Position numbers and translations under genes: made by a program. From contig JACPHL010000196.1 in NCBI GenBank assembly GCA_016188625.1, positions 1 to 7,505 on the forward strand: a stretch of 7,505 bases of DNA. Reading direction: 5' to 3'. Source of the stretch: Candidatus Rokuibacteriota bacterium. Its GTDB lineage: Bacteria; Methylomirabilota; Methylomirabilia; Rokubacteriales; JACPHL01. This document shows positions 351 through 4,742 of this stretch, piece by piece. The stretch's first letter is position 1, and each line of letters begins with the position of its first letter. The notes below the pieces were generated by a model, which had not been told where the DNA came from, made no database searches, and saw nothing but the letters and a program-made list of their open reading frames with translations.

Positions 351-394
351 CCGGATTTTCAGGGCGGCTCGGGTACTCGGGTAAATGTTACATC
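351..394 (+). promoter_or_regulatory. Upstream activating element, copy 1
   Basis: First of three related elements. It has a left T-tract (TTTTC, 356-360) and a right box GGTAAATGTTACATC (380-394), which matches the box of copies 2 and 3 at 13 of 15 positions. The right box ends 100 bp before the -24 GG of the sigma-54-type promoter at 493-508, a usual distance for an enhancer-binding protein site. A tandem duplication of CTCGGGTA (368-383) sits between the two halves and lengthens this copy. The role as an activator site is inferred from recurrence and position. Confidence 0.6.
368..383 (+). repeat. 8-bp tandem duplication CTCGGGTA x2
   Basis: CTCGGGTA occurs at 368-375 and again at 376-383 without a break, inside upstream element copy 1. 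Removing one unit brings the distance from the left T-tract to the TTACATC end of the box to 21 bp, against 20 bp in copies 2 and 3. It is therefore probably a slippage duplication in an ancestral element of the same form. Confidence 0.8.
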
Positions 395-450
395 CTCGCT
401 CCGCGCACAGGCTCGACCCGCGGATGCCGCCTCCGGCGCGAAAGCCCTGA

Positions 451-457
451 ATTTTCC
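451..457 (+). promoter_or_regulatory. Proximal T-tract element of promoter 1
   Basis: ATTTTCC is an AT-rich island in GC-rich DNA. The last T (455) is exactly 39 bp before the first G of the -24 element (494), the same spacing as at the other two promoters. Read on the other strand it is GGAAAAT, the core of the upstream box, so it may be an inverted half-site for the same activator or a bend site. Confidence 0.5.
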
Positions 458-492
458 AGCCTCTCGCACCCCTTCGATCCTCCACCCGACCC

Positions 493-508
493 AGGCATGG
501 AGGTTGCA
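493..508 (+). promoter_or_regulatory. Sigma-54 (RpoN) -24/-12 promoter 1
   Basis: GGCATGGAGGTTGCA carries GG (494-495), ten bases and GC (506-507). It fits the sigma-54 consensus TGGCACG-N4-TTGCW, with T for C in the -24 box and A for the leading T. Transcription would start near 519, leaving a leader of about 110 nt before the ATG at 628. It drives the three overlapping genes 628-2080. Upstream element copy 1 and the T-tract supply the expected activator sites. Confidence 0.75.
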
Positions 509-627
509 GTTCTCGGGAAGCTAGCCAGCACAGGCCCTCGGCCATCGTTCAGACAGGGCCTGCGGCGGACTCATCGTGGCGGATGGGTACTTCGGCCGGA
601 GCGGTAACGGCAAGGAGGACGCGCGAC

Positions 628-1098
628 ATGAGAACCAAGGACAGGCTCGACCGCCGGACCGTGCAGGAGATCGAACGGTCCCTCAGGGACCGGCACGCCA
701 GGCTCAGGGAGTCCATGCGGAGCGCCATCGCCCAGCGAAACGGGAACGGGGCCGGCCGATCCACCGAGCTCATGGCCCGGGCGACCGAGACCCTGCACGA
801 AGAGATCCAGGTCGCCATCGTGGACCTCCACAGTCGCCAGGCCGCCCAGATCGAGGCGGCCCTCGAGCGGCTCGGCCAGCAGGAGTACGGGTTCTGCCGC
901 GACTGCGCGGGGTTCATCGGGGTGGCGCGACTCCGGGCCCTGCCGTTCGCCCAGCGATGCCAGCCCTGCCAGGCGCGGGCCGAGTCGAGGGCGCAGGAGG
1001 TGACGCCGGATGCGGCGCTCATCGCCACGGACGACGCCGAATGGGGACCGTCGGCTACCGGCGGGCCGAAGCGGATGACCCAGAAAGGAGGCCGATGA
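628..1098 (+). CDS. DksA/TraR-family C4 zinc-finger protein
   Basis: A 156-residue protein. The N-terminal 85 residues are charged and helical, consistent with the coiled-coil hairpin of the family. The C-terminus has a C4 zinc finger, C90-x2-C93-x17-C111-x2-C114, in the family context YGFCRDC...IGVARLRALPFAQRCQPC. Family members such as DksA enter the RNA polymerase secondary channel and change promoter response, often with ppGpp. The region between the two helices (NGNGAGRSTE) lacks the acidic DxxDxA tip of canonical DksA, so this is better called DksA/TraR-like than DksA. The start at 628 is chosen because a perfect AAGGAGG (612-618) precedes it by 9 nt; an in-frame ATG at 583 has no such site. 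It is the first gene after promoter 1, and its stop overlaps the next start (ATGA). Confidence 0.85.
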   Translation: MRTKDRLDRRTVQEIERSLRDRHARLRESMRSAIAQRNGNGAGRSTELMARATETLHEEIQVAIVDLHSRQAAQIEAALERLGQQEYGFCRDCAGFIGVARLRALPFAQRCQPCQARAESRAQEVTPDAALIATDDAEWGPSATGGPKRMTQKGGR

Positions 1099-1439
1099 TG
1101 CGTAGGCTCGGGCGGCTCGCCCTTCTGCTCCTCCTGATGCTATCGGTGGCCTCCCCCGCGCTGGCCGGGGTCGCCACCATCGAGACCACGGCCCCGCTTT
1201 CGGACTACTCCGAGCAGAGCATCACGATGGCCTTCAAGACGGCGGTCGAGACCGCCGTCCGCGGGGCGGTGGCTATGGGGCTCCCCCGGGTCCAGCTTCG
1301 CCAGGCGGTCGTGCTGGAGGACATGGTGGCGATCCAGATCCGGGCGACCGACATGGAACCCGACGCCGAGACCCCGGAGCCCGACCCGGACGAGACGCCC
1401 GGCGACGGGGCCGGGGAGCCCGGGAGGCTCGATCTATGA
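1095..1439 (+). CDS. Small secreted protein of unknown function, acidic tail
   Basis: A 114-residue protein that I do not recognise. MMRRLGRLALLLLLMLSVASPALA is a clear Sec signal peptide, with likely cleavage after Ala24. The mature part is about 90 residues: a predicted helical stretch (residues 41-62), a beta-like segment around RQAVVLEDMVAIQIRA, and a low-complexity Asp/Glu/Pro/Gly tail from about residue 87. The start overlaps the stop of the zinc-finger gene (ATGA), and AAAGGAGG sits just upstream. The stop overlaps the start of the MlaC-like gene in the same way, so all three should be translated together. Its place before an MlaC-like gene suggests a periplasmic job, but no function can be assigned. 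Confidence 0.8.
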   Translation: MMRRLGRLALLLLLMLSVASPALAGVATIETTAPLSDYSEQSITMAFKTAVETAVRGAVAMGLPRVQLRQAVVLEDMVAIQIRATDMEPDAETPEPDPDETPGDGAGEPGRLDL

Positions 1440-2080
1440 GGGGGCACGGGATCAAGCTCACCGTGGCGATCGCCGTCGTGGCGGGGCTCCTGGCGGGCGG
1501 GGGCTCCGTCGAGGCGGGCGCCCCGACGGACCAGCTCAAGGGGGCCGCCGACCGGGTGGTGAAGCTGCTCCGGGATCCCGAGCTCGGCAAGCCCGGAAAA
1601 GTCGCGGAGCGCCGGAAGCAGCTCCGCGCGGTCGCGGACCAGATCTTCGACTGGCAGGAGACCGCCAAGCGGGCCCTCGGCCGACACTGGCGGGAGCGGA
1701 CCCCCGCCGAGCGCGAGGAGTTCACGAGGCTCTTCGCCGACCTCCTCGAGCGCGCCTACGTCGGCAAGATCGAGCTGTACAGCGGCGAGCGGATCCGGTA
1801 CGAGGGCGAGAGCGTCGAAGGCGACCGGGCCATGGTGAGGACCATCCTGGTGACCAGGTCGAACACGGAGGTCCCCATCGACTACCGGATGCTCAAGGCG
1901 GGCGACCGGTGGCGGGTCTACGACGTGACGGTCGAGGGGATCAGCCTGGTCTCCAACTACCGCACACAGTTCAACCGGATCATCCAGCAGGCCGGGTACG
2001 GCGGCCTCGTGGAGAAGCTCAAGACCAGGCAGGACGAGCTGGTCGCCGAGGGATCGGCGCAGGGGAAGAAGAGGCGGTGA
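1436..2080 (+). CDS. MlaC/Ttg2D-type periplasmic phospholipid-binding protein
   Basis: A 214-residue protein with a signal peptide (hydrophobic 7-23, likely cleavage after Ala27, VEA-G) and an MlaC/Tol_Tol_Ttg2 domain over about residues 33-200. Diagnostic stretches are RTPAEREEFTRLFADLLERAY (88-108, helical), VPIDYRMLKAGDRWRVYDVTVEGISLV and SNYRTQFNRII (173-183). In Proteobacteria MlaC carries phospholipids between the outer-membrane MlaA complex and the inner-membrane MlaFEDB transporter. None of those partners is in the window, so this is an orphan copy placed after a DksA-like regulator and a small secreted protein. GGGAGG lies 8 nt before the ATG, and the start overlaps the preceding stop. 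The basic, Lys/Arg-rich C-terminus (KKRR) is unremarkable. The family call is firm; the exact ligand is not known. Confidence 0.9.
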   Translation: MRGHGIKLTVAIAVVAGLLAGGGSVEAGAPTDQLKGAADRVVKLLRDPELGKPGKVAERRKQLRAVADQIFDWQETAKRALGRHWRERTPAEREEFTRLFADLLERAYVGKIELYSGERIRYEGESVEGDRAMVRTILVTRSNTEVPIDYRMLKAGDRWRVYDVTVEGISLVSNYRTQFNRIIQQAGYGGLVEKLKTRQDELVAEGSAQGKKRR

Positions 2081-2116
2081 GGTCGATCACGGCCTTCCCC
2101 GGCGATCCGGGACCCC

Positions 2117-2152
2117 CCAATTTTTTCTGATGGCCCTGGAAAATCTTACATC
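2117..2152 (+). promoter_or_regulatory. Upstream activating element, copy 2
   Basis: CCAATTTTTT (2117-2126), then the box GGAAAATCTTACATC (2138-2152), identical over 15 bases to copy 3. The distance from the last T of the tract to TTACATC is 20 bp, as in copy 3. The element ends 99 bp before the -24 GG of promoter 2. The TTTTTTC and GGAAAA parts form an imperfect inverted repeat, as expected for a dimeric activator site. Confidence 0.65.
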
Positions 2153-2201
2153 CCGCGGCCTCGGACGGGGCGTTGAGGGCTCCCGCGCCGATCCAAATCC
2201 T

Positions 2202-2214
2202 CCAAAAGTTTTGG
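2202..2214 (+). promoter_or_regulatory. Proximal palindrome/T-tract element of promoter 2
   Basis: CCAAAAGTTTTGG is a perfect palindrome around a central G (2208). Its last T (2212) is exactly 39 bp before the -24 GG (2251), the same as at promoters 1 and 3. It is probably a protein-binding site: a second activator site or an architectural protein site. Confidence 0.55.
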
Positions 2215-2249
2215 GACCTTGGAAACCCGGGGCCGAGCCCCGAAGGCTC

Positions 2250-2265
2250 GGGCACGCCGGTTGCA
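2250..2265 (+). promoter_or_regulatory. Sigma-54 (RpoN) -24/-12 promoter 2
   Basis: GGCACGCCGGTTGCA matches the consensus GGCACG-N4-TTGCA at every fixed position, with GG at 2251-2252 and GC at 2263-2264. Only the leading T is replaced, by G. The start of transcription should be near 2276, giving a leader of about 85 nt before the ATG at 2361. It drives the DUF1344-like and coiled-coil genes. Confidence 0.85.
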
Positions 2266-2360
2266 GGGATGGGAAAGGGAGGCGGTGTCTCTGGAGGTGC
2301 CGGGGTCATGGTGGCCCGCCGGGGACGGTCGCAACAATACCCGGGGAGGAGGTGCATGGC

Positions 2361-2642
2361 ATGAGGCGAGTCGCCGCAGTCCTGACCGCGCTCCTGGTGG
2401 CGCTCTCGCTCGGCTGGGGCCTGGGGGTGCTGGCCCAGCAGGCGGGCGAGGTGGAGGGCAAGATCCAGAGCGTGGATCCGTCCGGGAGGGTGGTGACCCT
2501 CGAGGACGGGACCCAGCTCACGATCCCCGACAACGTCCAGGTCCAGCGCGACGCCCTCAAGGAGGGGGCGATGGTGAAGGCCAGTTTCGAGGAGAAGGAC
2601 GGGCAGAAGATCGTGACCAACATCGAGGTCAAGAAGGAGTAG
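2361..2642 (+). CDS. DUF1344-like secreted protein (complete paralogue)
   Basis: A 93-residue protein. The signal peptide MRRVAAVLTALLVALSLGWG... ends near the LAQQAG stretch (about residue 25-27). The mature part is one small beta-rich domain: EVEGKIQSVDPSGRVVTLEDGTQLTIPDNVQV, then LKEGAMVKASFEEKDGQKIVTNIEVKKE. This order (EGxIxSVDP, TLxDGTxxxIP, LKxGxxVKxxFEEKDG) is typical of DUF1344-like proteins, whose function is unknown; the fold is probably a small OB- or SH3-like barrel. The left-edge gene (1-161) is a close paralogue. The ATG at 2361 is chosen because GGAGGAGG (2345-2352) ends 8 nt upstream and the signal peptide starts there; in-frame codons further upstream lie before the promoter. 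It is the first gene of unit 2. Confidence 0.8.
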   Translation: MRRVAAVLTALLVALSLGWGLGVLAQQAGEVEGKIQSVDPSGRVVTLEDGTQLTIPDNVQVQRDALKEGAMVKASFEEKDGQKIVTNIEVKKE

Positions 2643-2674
2643 TTCCCTAGCGGGCCACCCAACCGTCGCGTCCA

Positions 2675-2701
2675 GAGGCTCGGGGTGACTCCCCGGGCCT
2701 C
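2675..2701 (+). terminator. Intergenic hairpin between the DUF1344-like and coiled-coil genes
   Basis: GAGGCTCGGGG (2675-2685) pairs with CCCCGGGCCTC (2691-2701), with one U-G wobble and a 5-nt loop. It begins 33 bp after the DUF1344-like stop, and no T-run follows. It may be an attenuator or an mRNA 3'-end stabiliser favouring the first gene over the second. The other DUF1344-like gene is also followed by a hairpin. Confidence 0.45.
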
Positions 2702-2734
2702 CGCGACGCGGCCGAGCGGAAGGGAGGGAGCGGG

Positions 2735-3085
2735 ATGCTGAGACGTGTACTGCCTATCGGGCTCGGGATCGCCTTTCTGGCGGTGTTGGCGTTCCTCGCC
2801 TTTGCCGAGGTCAACGACGACCACTACCGCCCGGTCCCGGAGACGTGGCTGGTGACCGAGGAGAGTCTTGACAGCAAGGTGGCCGAGATCAGGGCCGACG
2901 TGCAGAGCCTCCGCGCGGAGCAGCAGCGCCTCCAGGCGGACTTCCAGGGCCTGCGCGCGGAGAACAAGAGCCTCCGTCAGCAGGTGCAGACCCTCCAGGA
3001 GAACCTGCAGGCGAGGATGGAGAAGGAGGAGACCCGCGAGGGCAGGGCCCCGGAGGGTGGGGGGGCCGCGGGAGGGCGACTCTAG
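2735..3085 (+). CDS. Membrane-anchored coiled-coil protein
   Basis: A 116-residue protein. Residues 5-24 form a hydrophobic segment (a signal anchor or uncleaved signal). Residues 43-98 are a long charged helix with heptad-like Leu/Val spacing (VAEIRADVQSLRAEQQRL, FQGLRAENKSLRQQVQTLQENL), that is, a coiled coil. The last 15 residues are Gly/Ala-rich and probably disordered. I do not recognise a family; single-pass coiled-coil proteins of this shape include FtsB/FtsL-like and many spacer proteins, but nothing here marks cell-division function. GGGAGGGAG precedes the ATG. It follows the DUF1344-like gene by 92 bp, with a hairpin between, so it probably shares promoter 2. It converges on the minus-strand protease gene. 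Confidence 0.75.
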   Translation: MLRRVLPIGLGIAFLAVLAFLAFAEVNDDHYRPVPETWLVTEESLDSKVAEIRADVQSLRAEQQRLQADFQGLRAENKSLRQQVQTLQENLQARMEKEETREGRAPEGGGAAGGRL

Positions 3086-3115
3086 CCGATGGCGGCTCAG
3101 CGCTGACGGCCGGAG

Positions 3116-3931
3116 CTATTCCCCCGTCCTCGGGGGGGAGCGGCGATCCCCCAGGAGGTTGCCGTAGCCGGCCTGGTCCAGGAACCGCCGGATGGCGGCC
3201 GGTGGCGTGACGTAGGTCTCGCCGGGGACCGGCACGTTGATGGAGCGCGGCGAGTCCCCGCCCAGCGACACGCTCGCGGTCCCGTAGCCCTCCACGAGCC
3301 CGATCAGCCTTCCGGTGCGCGCCTCGTAGACGCCGCCCCCGCTCGAGCCGTAGGTCACCGAGGCGTCCACCATGATGCGCGAGGCCCCGTTTTCCCCCGC
3401 TGCCTCCGGCTCGACCTGGCTCACGATGCCGCCGGACAGCTTCATGTGGCGGCCCCAGGGAAAGGCGACGACCCAGACCGCCTCGCCGAGCGTCGGCGGA
3501 GGGCCCAGCGGGGCGGCGGAACATCGACCGGTCCGGATGCGCAGGAGGGCAAGGTCCAGCTCCTCGGCCTCTCGGCGGGCGAGGACGATGGCGCGCGCCT
3601 TCGTGGCCGCGCCCCGGTGGCGGTCGAACAGGACGTAGGCCTCGGCCTGTTCCGGTGGGCGGATCAGCGCATGCGCGCTCGTGAGGACGAAGCAGTCTGT
3701 GCCGTCCGCGGCCGGGCGCTGGGCGATCACGACGCCGGAGGCGCTCCGAAGGCGTCGTCCATCGTGGTGCTCGATGACGACCTGGACCGCCGAGGGCAGG
3801 ATCGCCTGGAGGACCTGCTCGCGGGTCGGCGCGGGAAGACGGCCGGTCGCGCAACCGGAGGCAAGCGCGAGCAGCAGGGAGCACATGATCGCGCCTCCCC
3901 CGAGGCGTCGCGGCCAAGACATGGTGGGCAT
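3116..3931 (-). CDS. Trypsin-like (S1/HtrA-type) serine protease, lipoprotein
   Basis: With the start at 3931 the protein has 271 residues. It begins with a lipoprotein signal ending in LALASGC (lipobox; lipidated Cys27). The catalytic triad is visible: His87 in LTSAHAL, Asp126 in ELDLALLRI and Ser197 in GSSGGGVYEARTGRLIGLVEG. This is the Trypsin_2/S1C fold as in HtrA/DegP, but there is no PDZ domain, so it is about a protease-domain length. It probably acts on periplasmic or envelope proteins while tethered to a membrane. ATG 3931 has a GGAG about 10 nt upstream on its strand; ATG 3922 is three codons later and equally fits the signal. Longer in-frame extensions upstream would overlap the divergent gene and delay the signal peptide, so I reject them. 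Confidence 0.85.
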   Translation of the reverse strand: MPTMSWPRRLGGGAIMCSLLLALASGCATGRLPAPTREQVLQAILPSAVQVVIEHHDGRRLRSASGVVIAQRPAADGTDCFVLTSAHALIRPPEQAEAYVLFDRHRGAATKARAIVLARREAEELDLALLRIRTGRCSAAPLGPPPTLGEAVWVVAFPWGRHMKLSGGIVSQVEPEAAGENGASRIMVDASVTYGSSGGGVYEARTGRLIGLVEGYGTASVSLGGDSPRSINVPVPGETYVTPPAAIRRFLDQAGYGNLLGDRRSPPRTGE

Positions 3932-3971
3932 GATACCCCAGCTCCCCCCGGGGATCAAGGGGTAGCTTTCC

Positions 3972-3980
3972 GGAGGTGAT
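3972..3980 (+). promoter_or_regulatory. Near-perfect Shine-Dalgarno of the BON-like gene
   Basis: GGAGGTGAT is fully complementary to the 16S anti-SD core (AUCACCUCC) and sits just before the ATG at 3984, fixing that start. It lies in the 52-bp gap between the two divergent genes. I see no convincing -35/-10 pair in the gap. Confidence 0.75.
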
Positions 3981-3983
3981 CCC

Positions 3984-4490
3984 ATGAGATCTATCGGTGT
4001 CGCATTCGGGATCCTCGCGGTCTTCCTCGCGCCCATGGCGGTCCCTGCGCCTGGCTGGGCCCAGGCGCCCGGCGCCCCGGGCGCGCCCCTCCCACCGCCA
4101 GTGGCTGGCAGCCCCGTGGAACCCGACGGGGGCGGCGCGGGACTGGCGCTCGTCCTCCTGACGCTCGGGTTCATCGTCGTCATCGGGGCTGCGGGGAAGC
4201 TGGTCGATCTCAGGCGGAGACGGGAGGAGGACGCGGTCTACATCGAGTCGCAGATCTCCGACGTGCTGCTTCGAGATCCAAAGCTCTTCCGCCTGCCGAT
4301 CAAGTCTACCGTGCGGCTCCCGACCTGGAAGGGGTCGCCGGCCGCCATCACCGTCTCGGGACAGGTGCCGACGCCTGAGCTCCGGCAGGTCATCCTTCGC
4401 ACCGTCGAGGAGGAGGCGTCGCGGATTCGATCGGACTTCCGGATCGAGGACCGGATCGTCGTCGCATCCCGGGGGACCCGCGCCGCCTGA
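3984..4490 (+). CDS. Membrane-anchored BON-like domain protein
   Basis: A 168-residue protein. Residues 1-27 look like a signal peptide (cleavage near WAQA). Residues 28-50 are an Ala/Gly/Pro-rich linker, 53-71 a transmembrane helix (LALVLLTLGFIVVIGAA), followed by a positive stop-transfer KLVDLRRRR. Residues 86-162 resemble a BON domain: helix (IESQISDVLLRDPKLF), beta (AITVSGQVPT), helix (ELRQVILRTVEEEASRI), beta (FRIEDRIVV). BON domains bind phospholipid membranes, as in OsmY or DolP. With a cleaved signal and the positive cluster after the helix, the BON-like part would be cytoplasmic; with an uncleaved signal the topology would be reversed, so sidedness is uncertain. It is divergent from the lipoprotein protease and not visibly under a sigma-54 promoter. 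Confidence 0.7.
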   Translation: MRSIGVAFGILAVFLAPMAVPAPGWAQAPGAPGAPLPPPVAGSPVEPDGGGAGLALVLLTLGFIVVIGAAGKLVDLRRRREEDAVYIESQISDVLLRDPKLFRLPIKSTVRLPTWKGSPAAITVSGQVPTPELRQVILRTVEEEASRIRSDFRIEDRIVVASRGTRAA

Positions 4491-4606
4491 AGCGAGCGAT
4501 GGGTGGACTCCTCTGGTCCCTCCCCGTGGCGGGCCTCCTCACGCCGGACGGCCGGGCCGCGTAAGGGAATTGCGCCGCGGCGCGCCCCCTTTCGTCCCGC
4601 AGACGG

Positions 4607-4641
4607 CCAATTTTTCCGGTGGCTCGGGAAAATCTTACATC
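4607..4641 (+). promoter_or_regulatory. Upstream activating element, copy 3
   Basis: CCAATTTTT (4607-4615) and the box GGAAAATCTTACATC (4627-4641), identical over 15 bases to copy 2. ATTTTTCC and GGGAAAAT form an imperfect inverted repeat. It ends 87 bp before the -24 GG of promoter 3, 12-13 bp (about one helical turn) closer than in copies 1 and 2. Confidence 0.65.
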
Positions 4642-4649
4642 GAGCCACC
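4618..4649 (+). repeat. Perfect 9-bp inverted repeat around the activator box
   Basis: GGTGGCTCG (4618-4626) and CGAGCCACC (4641-4649) are perfect inverted copies flanking the 14-nt GGAAAATCTTACAT core of upstream element copy 3. The arms are not conserved in copies 1 and 2, so this dyad is particular to promoter 3. It could be a further operator or a cruciform-prone site. Confidence 0.6.
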
Positions 4650-4684
4650 GCAGTGCGCCTCCCCTCCTCCACCACAACTACCCG

Positions 4685-4691
4685 TTTTTCC
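4685..4691 (+). promoter_or_regulatory. Proximal T-tract element of promoter 3
   Basis: TTTTTCC. The last T (4689) is exactly 39 bp before the -24 GG (4728), matching the other two promoters. On the opposite strand it reads GGAAAAA, close to the core of the upstream box. Confidence 0.5.
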
Positions 4692-4726
4692 TGCTCTTTA
4701 CAGCCCGCATGCCGCCTCGCCGGGGT

Positions 4727-4742
4727 GGGCACGTGGGTTGCA
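4727..4742 (+). promoter_or_regulatory. Sigma-54 (RpoN) -24/-12 promoter 3
   Basis: GGCACGTGGGTTGCA is a full match to GGCACG-N4-TTGCA, with GG at 4728-4729 and GC at 4740-4741. Transcription should start near 4753, which leaves about 33 nt before the ATG at 4786 and makes the upstream GTG at 4756 an unlikely start. It drives the receiver protein and probably the four genes after it. Confidence 0.85.

Follow-up and report, generated by a model that had tools for sequence, protein, structure and literature searches.

Three sigma-54 promoters in a 7,505-nucleotide contig of a Candidatus Rokuibacteriota bacterium (JACPHL010000196.1, C336 in our numbering and 'the window' hereafter) each carry a short T-tract at the same distance upstream of the -24 element. 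We propose with considerable, though not full, confidence, derived from comparative sequence analysis, that this T-tract is part of a site for an architectural protein of the integration host factor (IHF) type, and that the site is phased on one face of the DNA helix which would allow an activator at a distance to reach RNA polymerase by DNA looping. The three promoters, called P1 (at 494), P2 (at 2251) and P3 (at 4728), each match GGCAYGN4TTGCA and are preceded, 93-106 bp upstream of the -24 element, by an activator box that ends in TTACATC. The assembly that contains the window comprises 2.6 Mb in 344 contigs and is 84% complete. The promoter parts are as follows.

380 to 393, plus strand: activator box of P1, GGTAAATGTTACAT
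452 to 455, plus strand: T-tract of P1, AATTTTCC, final T 39 bp before the -24 GG
494 to 508, plus strand: sigma-54 -24/-12 element of P1, GGCATGGAGGTTGCA
2138 to 2151, plus strand: activator box of P2, GGAAAATCTTACAT
2209 to 2212, plus strand: T-tract of P2, AAAAGTTTTGGG, final T 39 bp before the -24 GG
2251 to 2265, plus strand: sigma-54 -24/-12 element of P2, GGCACGCCGGTTGCA
4627 to 4640, plus strand: activator box of P3, GGAAAATCTTACAT
4685 to 4689, plus strand: T-tract of P3, GTTTTTCC, final T 39 bp before the -24 GG
4728 to 4742, plus strand: sigma-54 -24/-12 element of P3, GGCACGTGGGTTGCA

An earlier note on this DNA had put the distance from the final T of the tract to the initial G of the -24 element at exactly 39 bp, and the positions bear this out for all three promoters (455 and 494, 2212 and 2251, 4689 and 4728). 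When the three box-to-promoter spacers were subjected to dinucleotide shuffling, a common end distance for T-runs of at least four residues arose in 0 of 20,000 trials, and uniform random placement of one T-run per spacer gives a coincidence probability of approximately 1e-4. Because the feature was picked after the sequence had been read, the realistic chance figure is higher, perhaps 0.001-0.02, and chance agreement is unlikely, though possible, given this selection by eye.

Pattern searches of the assembly revealed only one more promoter that has both a box and a sigma-54 site. This promoter, P4 (C205:4223-4350), conforms like the other three to the GG-N10-GC consensus for -24/-12 elements (as GGCAYGN4TTGCA), and its T-runs end 48 bp (TTTT) and 40 bp (TTT) upstream of the GG. 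A distance of exactly 39 bp is therefore not maintained in every box-containing promoter of the genome, but TTT at positions 42-40 upstream of the GG is present in P1 through P4, and nowhere else in the four spacers do adjacent columns stay invariant. The earlier note had looked to further regulon members for a T-tract at this distance, and P4 provides one at 42-40, albeit not at the exact 39. No T-run occurs at 39-42 at the six other GGCAYGN4TTGCW sites of the genome, all of which lack the box. Taken with the orthologous promoters described next, these observations confirm that the T-tract is real, and that the constraint acts on the helical face rather than on the exact base pair.

Orthologous promoters, when aligned on the tract, conform to TTTYC-N6-TTRG located either at 42-29 or one helical turn nearer to the promoter. 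The TTT resides at 42-40 in six loci (L126, L127, L129, L131, L132 and L133), at 41-39 in L130, at 39-37 in L128, and one helical turn closer, at 32-28, in L124, L124b and L125. A search of 95 genomes of the class with the pattern TTTCN6TTRG-N{3,33}-GGCAYGN4TTGC yielded 17 matches, compared to 0 for a reversed control, and the gaps between the two elements are 16, 17, 17 and 18, and then 25-29, with none between or outside these values. Approximately 10 of these matches are orthologues of a single locus and thus are not independent, and the remaining seven are other promoters, including one duplicate pair. Promoters in other families of the class, where the operons are unrelated, have the element as well (L153-L156). 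The box behaves differently. In the same 95 genomes, a search for the box type of this genome with two mismatches allowed gave only chance-like matches outside this genome, and the box of relatives reads TGTAAN3TTACAC or, more generally, TGTAAN3TTACAY, which the tract element there does not resemble. Judging from these comparisons, the letters of the box have diverged across the class while the downstream element has been kept.

The layout of the conserved element, TTTC-N6-TTR, is shared with the IHF consensus WATC-ARNNNN-TTR. In P4, TTTCAAAGGATTA carries eight of the nine consensus letters, and an orthologous promoter in genome G058 carries AAATCAAAGGGTT in the same register; by sequence, both would be near-perfect sites for the IHF core WATCARNNNNTTR. 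We also searched 388 genomes for canonical cores (WTCARNNNNTTR, WTCARN4TTR) upstream of -24/-12 elements. Within the class (n=48), the gaps are confined to 6-7, 15-19, 26-31 and 35-36, with none at 8-14, 20-25 or 32-34. After dereplication, 27 of 28 clusters are in phase, and none of 3,000 uniform draws is equally periodic. The same gap windows dominate in genomes of the domain outside the class (n=79; p=0.001 versus uniform gaps), and the tract element occupies these gap windows as well. Thus, a helical-phase constraint, with gap clusters one turn apart, is evident both for the element and for the canonical cores.

The individual spacers were scanned on both strands with an IHF matrix built from 29 dereplicated sites of the class, this genome excluded. 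The top sites in the window, together with their alternatives, are listed here.

440 to 454, minus strand: top candidate IHF-type site of P1, AAATTCAGGGCTTTC, 11.5 bits
451 to 465, plus strand: weak forward alternative candidate of P1, ATTTTCCAGCCTCTC
2194 to 2221: weak candidate IHF-type element of P2, best on the minus strand at 2194-2208 (7.2 bits), with the forward register at 2207-2221, AGTTTTGGGACCTTG
4675 to 4700: weak candidate IHF-type element of P3, best on the minus strand at 4675-4689 (6.8 bits), with the forward register at 4686-4700, TTTTCCTGCTCTTTA

The P4 site scores 18.7 bits, and each of the four sites is the top match in its own spacer, although those of P1 through P3 are weak. 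The probability of an equally good site anywhere in the spacer is 0.004 for P1, 0.063 for P2, 0.045 for P3 and 0.0005 for P4. If the bend centre is placed 2 bp before the core, which is our assumption from the structure of the IHF-DNA complex, then the estimated centres fall 40, 43, 39 and 44 bp upstream of the GG in P1, P2, P3 and P4, respectively. The candidate sites span 28-57 bp upstream and so are situated between the box and the -24/-12 element. In P1 through P3 the minus strand provides the better match, such that the T-tract corresponds to the 5' A-run of the site, and forward matches in the register of P4 are poor. An IHF-type site at this place in P1 through P3 is likely from its sequence, with ambiguous orientation. 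Finally, among 23 promoters picked by the box alone, 10 of the 12 sites that score at least 6 bits fall at a few positions spaced roughly one turn apart.

Taken together, the spacing of the tract, the conservation of the element, the clustering of gaps by helical phase, the likeness to the IHF core and a conserved activator operon (see below) suggest the following mechanism. Each T-tract would constitute the A/T-rich part of an IHF-type site that lies midway between the -24/-12 element and the box approximately 100 bp upstream of it. The protein that binds there would be IHF or an HU-family protein resembling IHF. Its centre would fall roughly 40-44 bp before the -24 GG, or at about -66 relative to the transcription start when the C in the -12 GC is counted as -12. 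The resulting bend would bring the box-bound NtrC-type activator, probably the one encoded beside P4, to the sigma-54 holoenzyme, and helical phase would dictate that the site occurs at this distance or one turn closer. For a protein bound on a set face of the helix, the earlier note had offered either an architectural DNA-bending protein or a second activator site in inverted orientation. The first of these ideas is well supported by the phasing of an IHF-type element in relatives and of canonical sites across the class.

Several observations weigh against an IHF-type site. The matches in P1 through P3 to the IHF consensus are only partial, with the better strand opposite to that of P4, and the P2 site, the weakest, is approximately 3 bp out of register. 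Good sites were not seen at the tract position in three orthologous promoters (L137, L141 and L135). Moreover, the phase statistic treats chance gaps as uniform, whereas true promoters are mildly uneven in A/T content. IHF itself was not found in this incomplete assembly, which yielded only two HU-like proteins, neither of them near an IHF cut-off, and no genome of the class reaches the curated cut-off of TIGR00987, with the cut-off of a second model, NF001401, being reached in the one genome tested against it. Regarding the protein, a relative from the same order (G029) encodes both IHF-alpha (116.2 bits, cut-off 111) and IHF-beta (116.9 bits, cut-off 115), and most genomes of the class carry such IHF-alpha-like and IHF-beta-like genes in a conserved linkage about 12.5 kb apart (for example, G029:C3:10482 and 23120). 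Since the two genes are this close together in relatives, one missing stretch of the assembly could have removed both. It is also possible that IHF has truly been lost and that HU serves in its place.

We considered other explanations for the T-tract. An UP-like element, wherein the C-terminal domains of the alpha subunits of the sigma-54 holoenzyme contact the minor groove of the A/T tract on one helical face, is improbable but deserves some weight, and it would accommodate both the 10-bp separation of the two A/T patches (TTT at 42-40 and TT at 32-31) and the tolerated shift by one turn. Conservation exceeds mere A/T richness, however, given the C that follows the T-run, the TTRG ten bases further on, and the 4+6+3 layout of an IHF site, and canonical IHF cores reside in the same register. 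In addition, the tract is located around -64 to -67, and standard UP subsites are nearer to the promoter than this.

The second of the ideas in the earlier note, an inverted activator site, taken here as a low-affinity one for the same activator, now appears very unlikely. It stems from the fact that the box half GGAAAAT or GGAAAAA has as its reverse complement the ATTTTCC of P1 and the TTTTTCC of P3. No such match exists in P2 (TTTTGGG) or P4 (TTTCAAA), there is no TTACAT half-site beside the tract, and the element of relatives is still TTTYC-N6-TTRG even where the box is TGTAAN3TTACAY, and thus the two do not co-vary. We likewise ascribe little probability to a protein-free role for the tract through intrinsic curvature or flexibility. 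P1, P2 and P4 have short runs of A and of T near 56-51 and 42-39 that would be in keeping with this notion, but orthologues preserve specific letters other than A and T (the C and the RG), and L131 and L133 have TTT alone in very GC-rich DNA, which is too short for a strong bend. Equally doubtful is another sequence-specific regulator, such as one recognizing an OmpR-type direct repeat, TT(T).C-N5-YTT. Its appeal lies in half-elements about 10 bp apart, as in the half-sites of OmpR, PhoB and CpxR, but the element's presence at the unrelated operons noted above, and the occurrence of one-mismatch IHF sites in the same register, argue against it. Coincidence, chosen from among many possible features, is scarcely credible: the choice was made after the fact and P4 departs from exactly 39 bp, yet the shuffling result, the TTT of P4 and other held-out promoters, the retention in orthologues and the phasing across the class largely refute it. 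A terminator U-tract was also rejected, since no G+C hairpin directly precedes the T-run and the distance is tied to the -24 element.

Placement of IHF between an enhancer and a sigma-54 promoter is already known, and P1 through P4 are probably a new instance of this architecture. At the orp1 and orp2 promoters of Desulfovibrio (vulgaris), an IHF site between the activator site and the sigma-54 promoter is required even though it matches only 67% of the consensus (PMC3897727). IHF is also required at the targets of CbrB in Pseudomonas putida (PMC6296734), and the E. coli psp promoter is cited as IHF-assisted in PMC7175178. The promoters examined here resemble these systems in having the candidate site between the box and the -24/-12 element, a putative core that is WATCARNNNNTTR or degenerate, and an NtrC-type activator. 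They differ in the weakness and uncertain orientation of three of the four sites; no IHF gene was found in the incomplete assembly, and the class prefers a T-run (TTTTC) at the position of the E. coli WATC. That enhancer-dependent promoters of this poorly studied lineage use the bent and phased layout known from Proteobacteria is a testable statement.

Because the class-wide and domain-wide gap distributions agree, we further propose a positional code across bacteria in which IHF cores end approximately 6-7, 15-19 or 26-31 bp upstream of the GG, whatever the activator. We regard this generalization as evenly balanced between holding and failing. The discrete windows one turn apart would arise because the bend must direct the enhancer to a single face of the holoenzyme. 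In a limited literature search, we came across no published rule that sets the helical position of IHF sites with respect to the -24 element, and this broader phase rule is the part of our analysis that might be new. If general, it would permit the joint prediction of sigma-54 promoters and IHF sites, and of spacer changes that kill a promoter.

The genes behind the promoters of the window are as follows.

628 to 1098, plus strand: DksA/TraR-type zinc-finger gene (PF01258), behind P1
2361 to 2642, plus strand: gene for a DUF1344 / CusF-like secreted protein (PF07076), behind P2
4786 to 5229, plus strand: stand-alone response-regulator receiver gene (PF00072), behind P3

Upstream of P4, contig C205 encodes in order an NtrC-type activator (452 aa, with a readable GAFTGA motif), a sensor kinase (~600 aa) and a coiled-coil lipoprotein. 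The genome has 18 matches to PF00158, and we infer from these many activators that rpoN is present. Of 59 genomes of the order, about 20 encode a relative of the lipoprotein. The kinase (43-75% identity) again precedes it there, and at most of these loci the lipoprotein gene is closely followed by a sigma-54 element that is perfect or nearly so. In many genomes, this promoter is followed by a stand-alone receiver gene that corresponds to the one behind P3, with 45-61% identity in the clear cases (L124-L133). Element-bearing promoters also precede relatives of the P1 gene (DksA/TraR type, L169, G058) and of the P2 gene (DUF1344, L166, G014), and at L165 an MlaC gene lies downstream of one. Given the conserved operon and the related genes behind element-bearing promoters, the C205 activator and kinase are probably the regulators of P1 through P4. 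The analysis thereby names a conserved regulon of four promoters with a likely activator/sensor pair.

The arrangement recalls AtoSC and ZraSR, wherein the activator gene, the kinase gene and the sigma-54 target promoter also adjoin one another. AtoC is the best model for the C205 activator, with a score (451.8 bits) that is below the cut-offs for AtoC (714) and ZraR (760), and the extra lipoprotein gene between the kinase and the promoter, conserved across the order, sets the present system apart. There is also a likeness to the PEP-CTERM regulon controlled by PrsK-PrsR (Haft et al. 2006, PMC1569441), in which a box ending in TTTACA or TTACA, resembling motif 1, lies upstream of a sigma-54 promoter. 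The mean distance between motifs in that regulon is 62.8 bp, compared to a spacer of 87-100 bp from box to -24 element here, and as far as seen the genes here have envelope and regulatory functions rather than encoding PEP-CTERM proteins. PrsR was rejected as the activator, since the TIGR02915 cut-off is 502.6 and the C205 activator scores 414.8, with 428.2 the best among the ten activators scanned from this assembly. Box promoters in other phyla (L049, L056, L057 and L060) read TGTCGGAATATTTTACAT or near it. A scan of genome contigs for the box together with the -24/-12 pattern produced 14 matches, none from a close relative; several resemble PEP-CTERM-type promoters of Proteobacteria, and others apparently fall in coding DNA.

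Other sigma-54 promoters and boxes came to light as well. In three promoters of this genome (G000), AATTTTGTCA or a near variant stands some 130 bp ahead of the -24 element (C110:10135, C260:16576 and C337:2493; L084, L086 and L090), and one of the three precedes a gene whose product begins like a type IV pilin (RGVTLVEL); they look like a separate regulon, possibly of the PilR type. In genus g7, TTACACGGT repeats occur upstream of sigma-54 elements (L067, L068, L074 and L075, in G050, G056 and G057), in tandem at L067 and L075, and these apparently are arrays of the order's activator box.

A further T-tract (TTTTTTC) is present upstream of each box, at 356-359, 2121-2126 and 4611-4615 in the window and before the P4 box (L023), and may be part of the activator site. 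Its final T lies 20-21 bp from TTACAT in P2, P3 and P4 and 29 bp from it in P1, where the spacing is longer because of an 8-bp tandem duplication (CTCGGGTA / CTCGGGTACTCGGGTA, 367-382) between this upstream tract and the box. Elsewhere in the window, two related DUF1344 / CusF-like small proteins are encoded at the left edge (1-162) and behind P2, and a gene for a trypsin-like protease (3116-3922, minus strand) separates the P2 and P3 operons.

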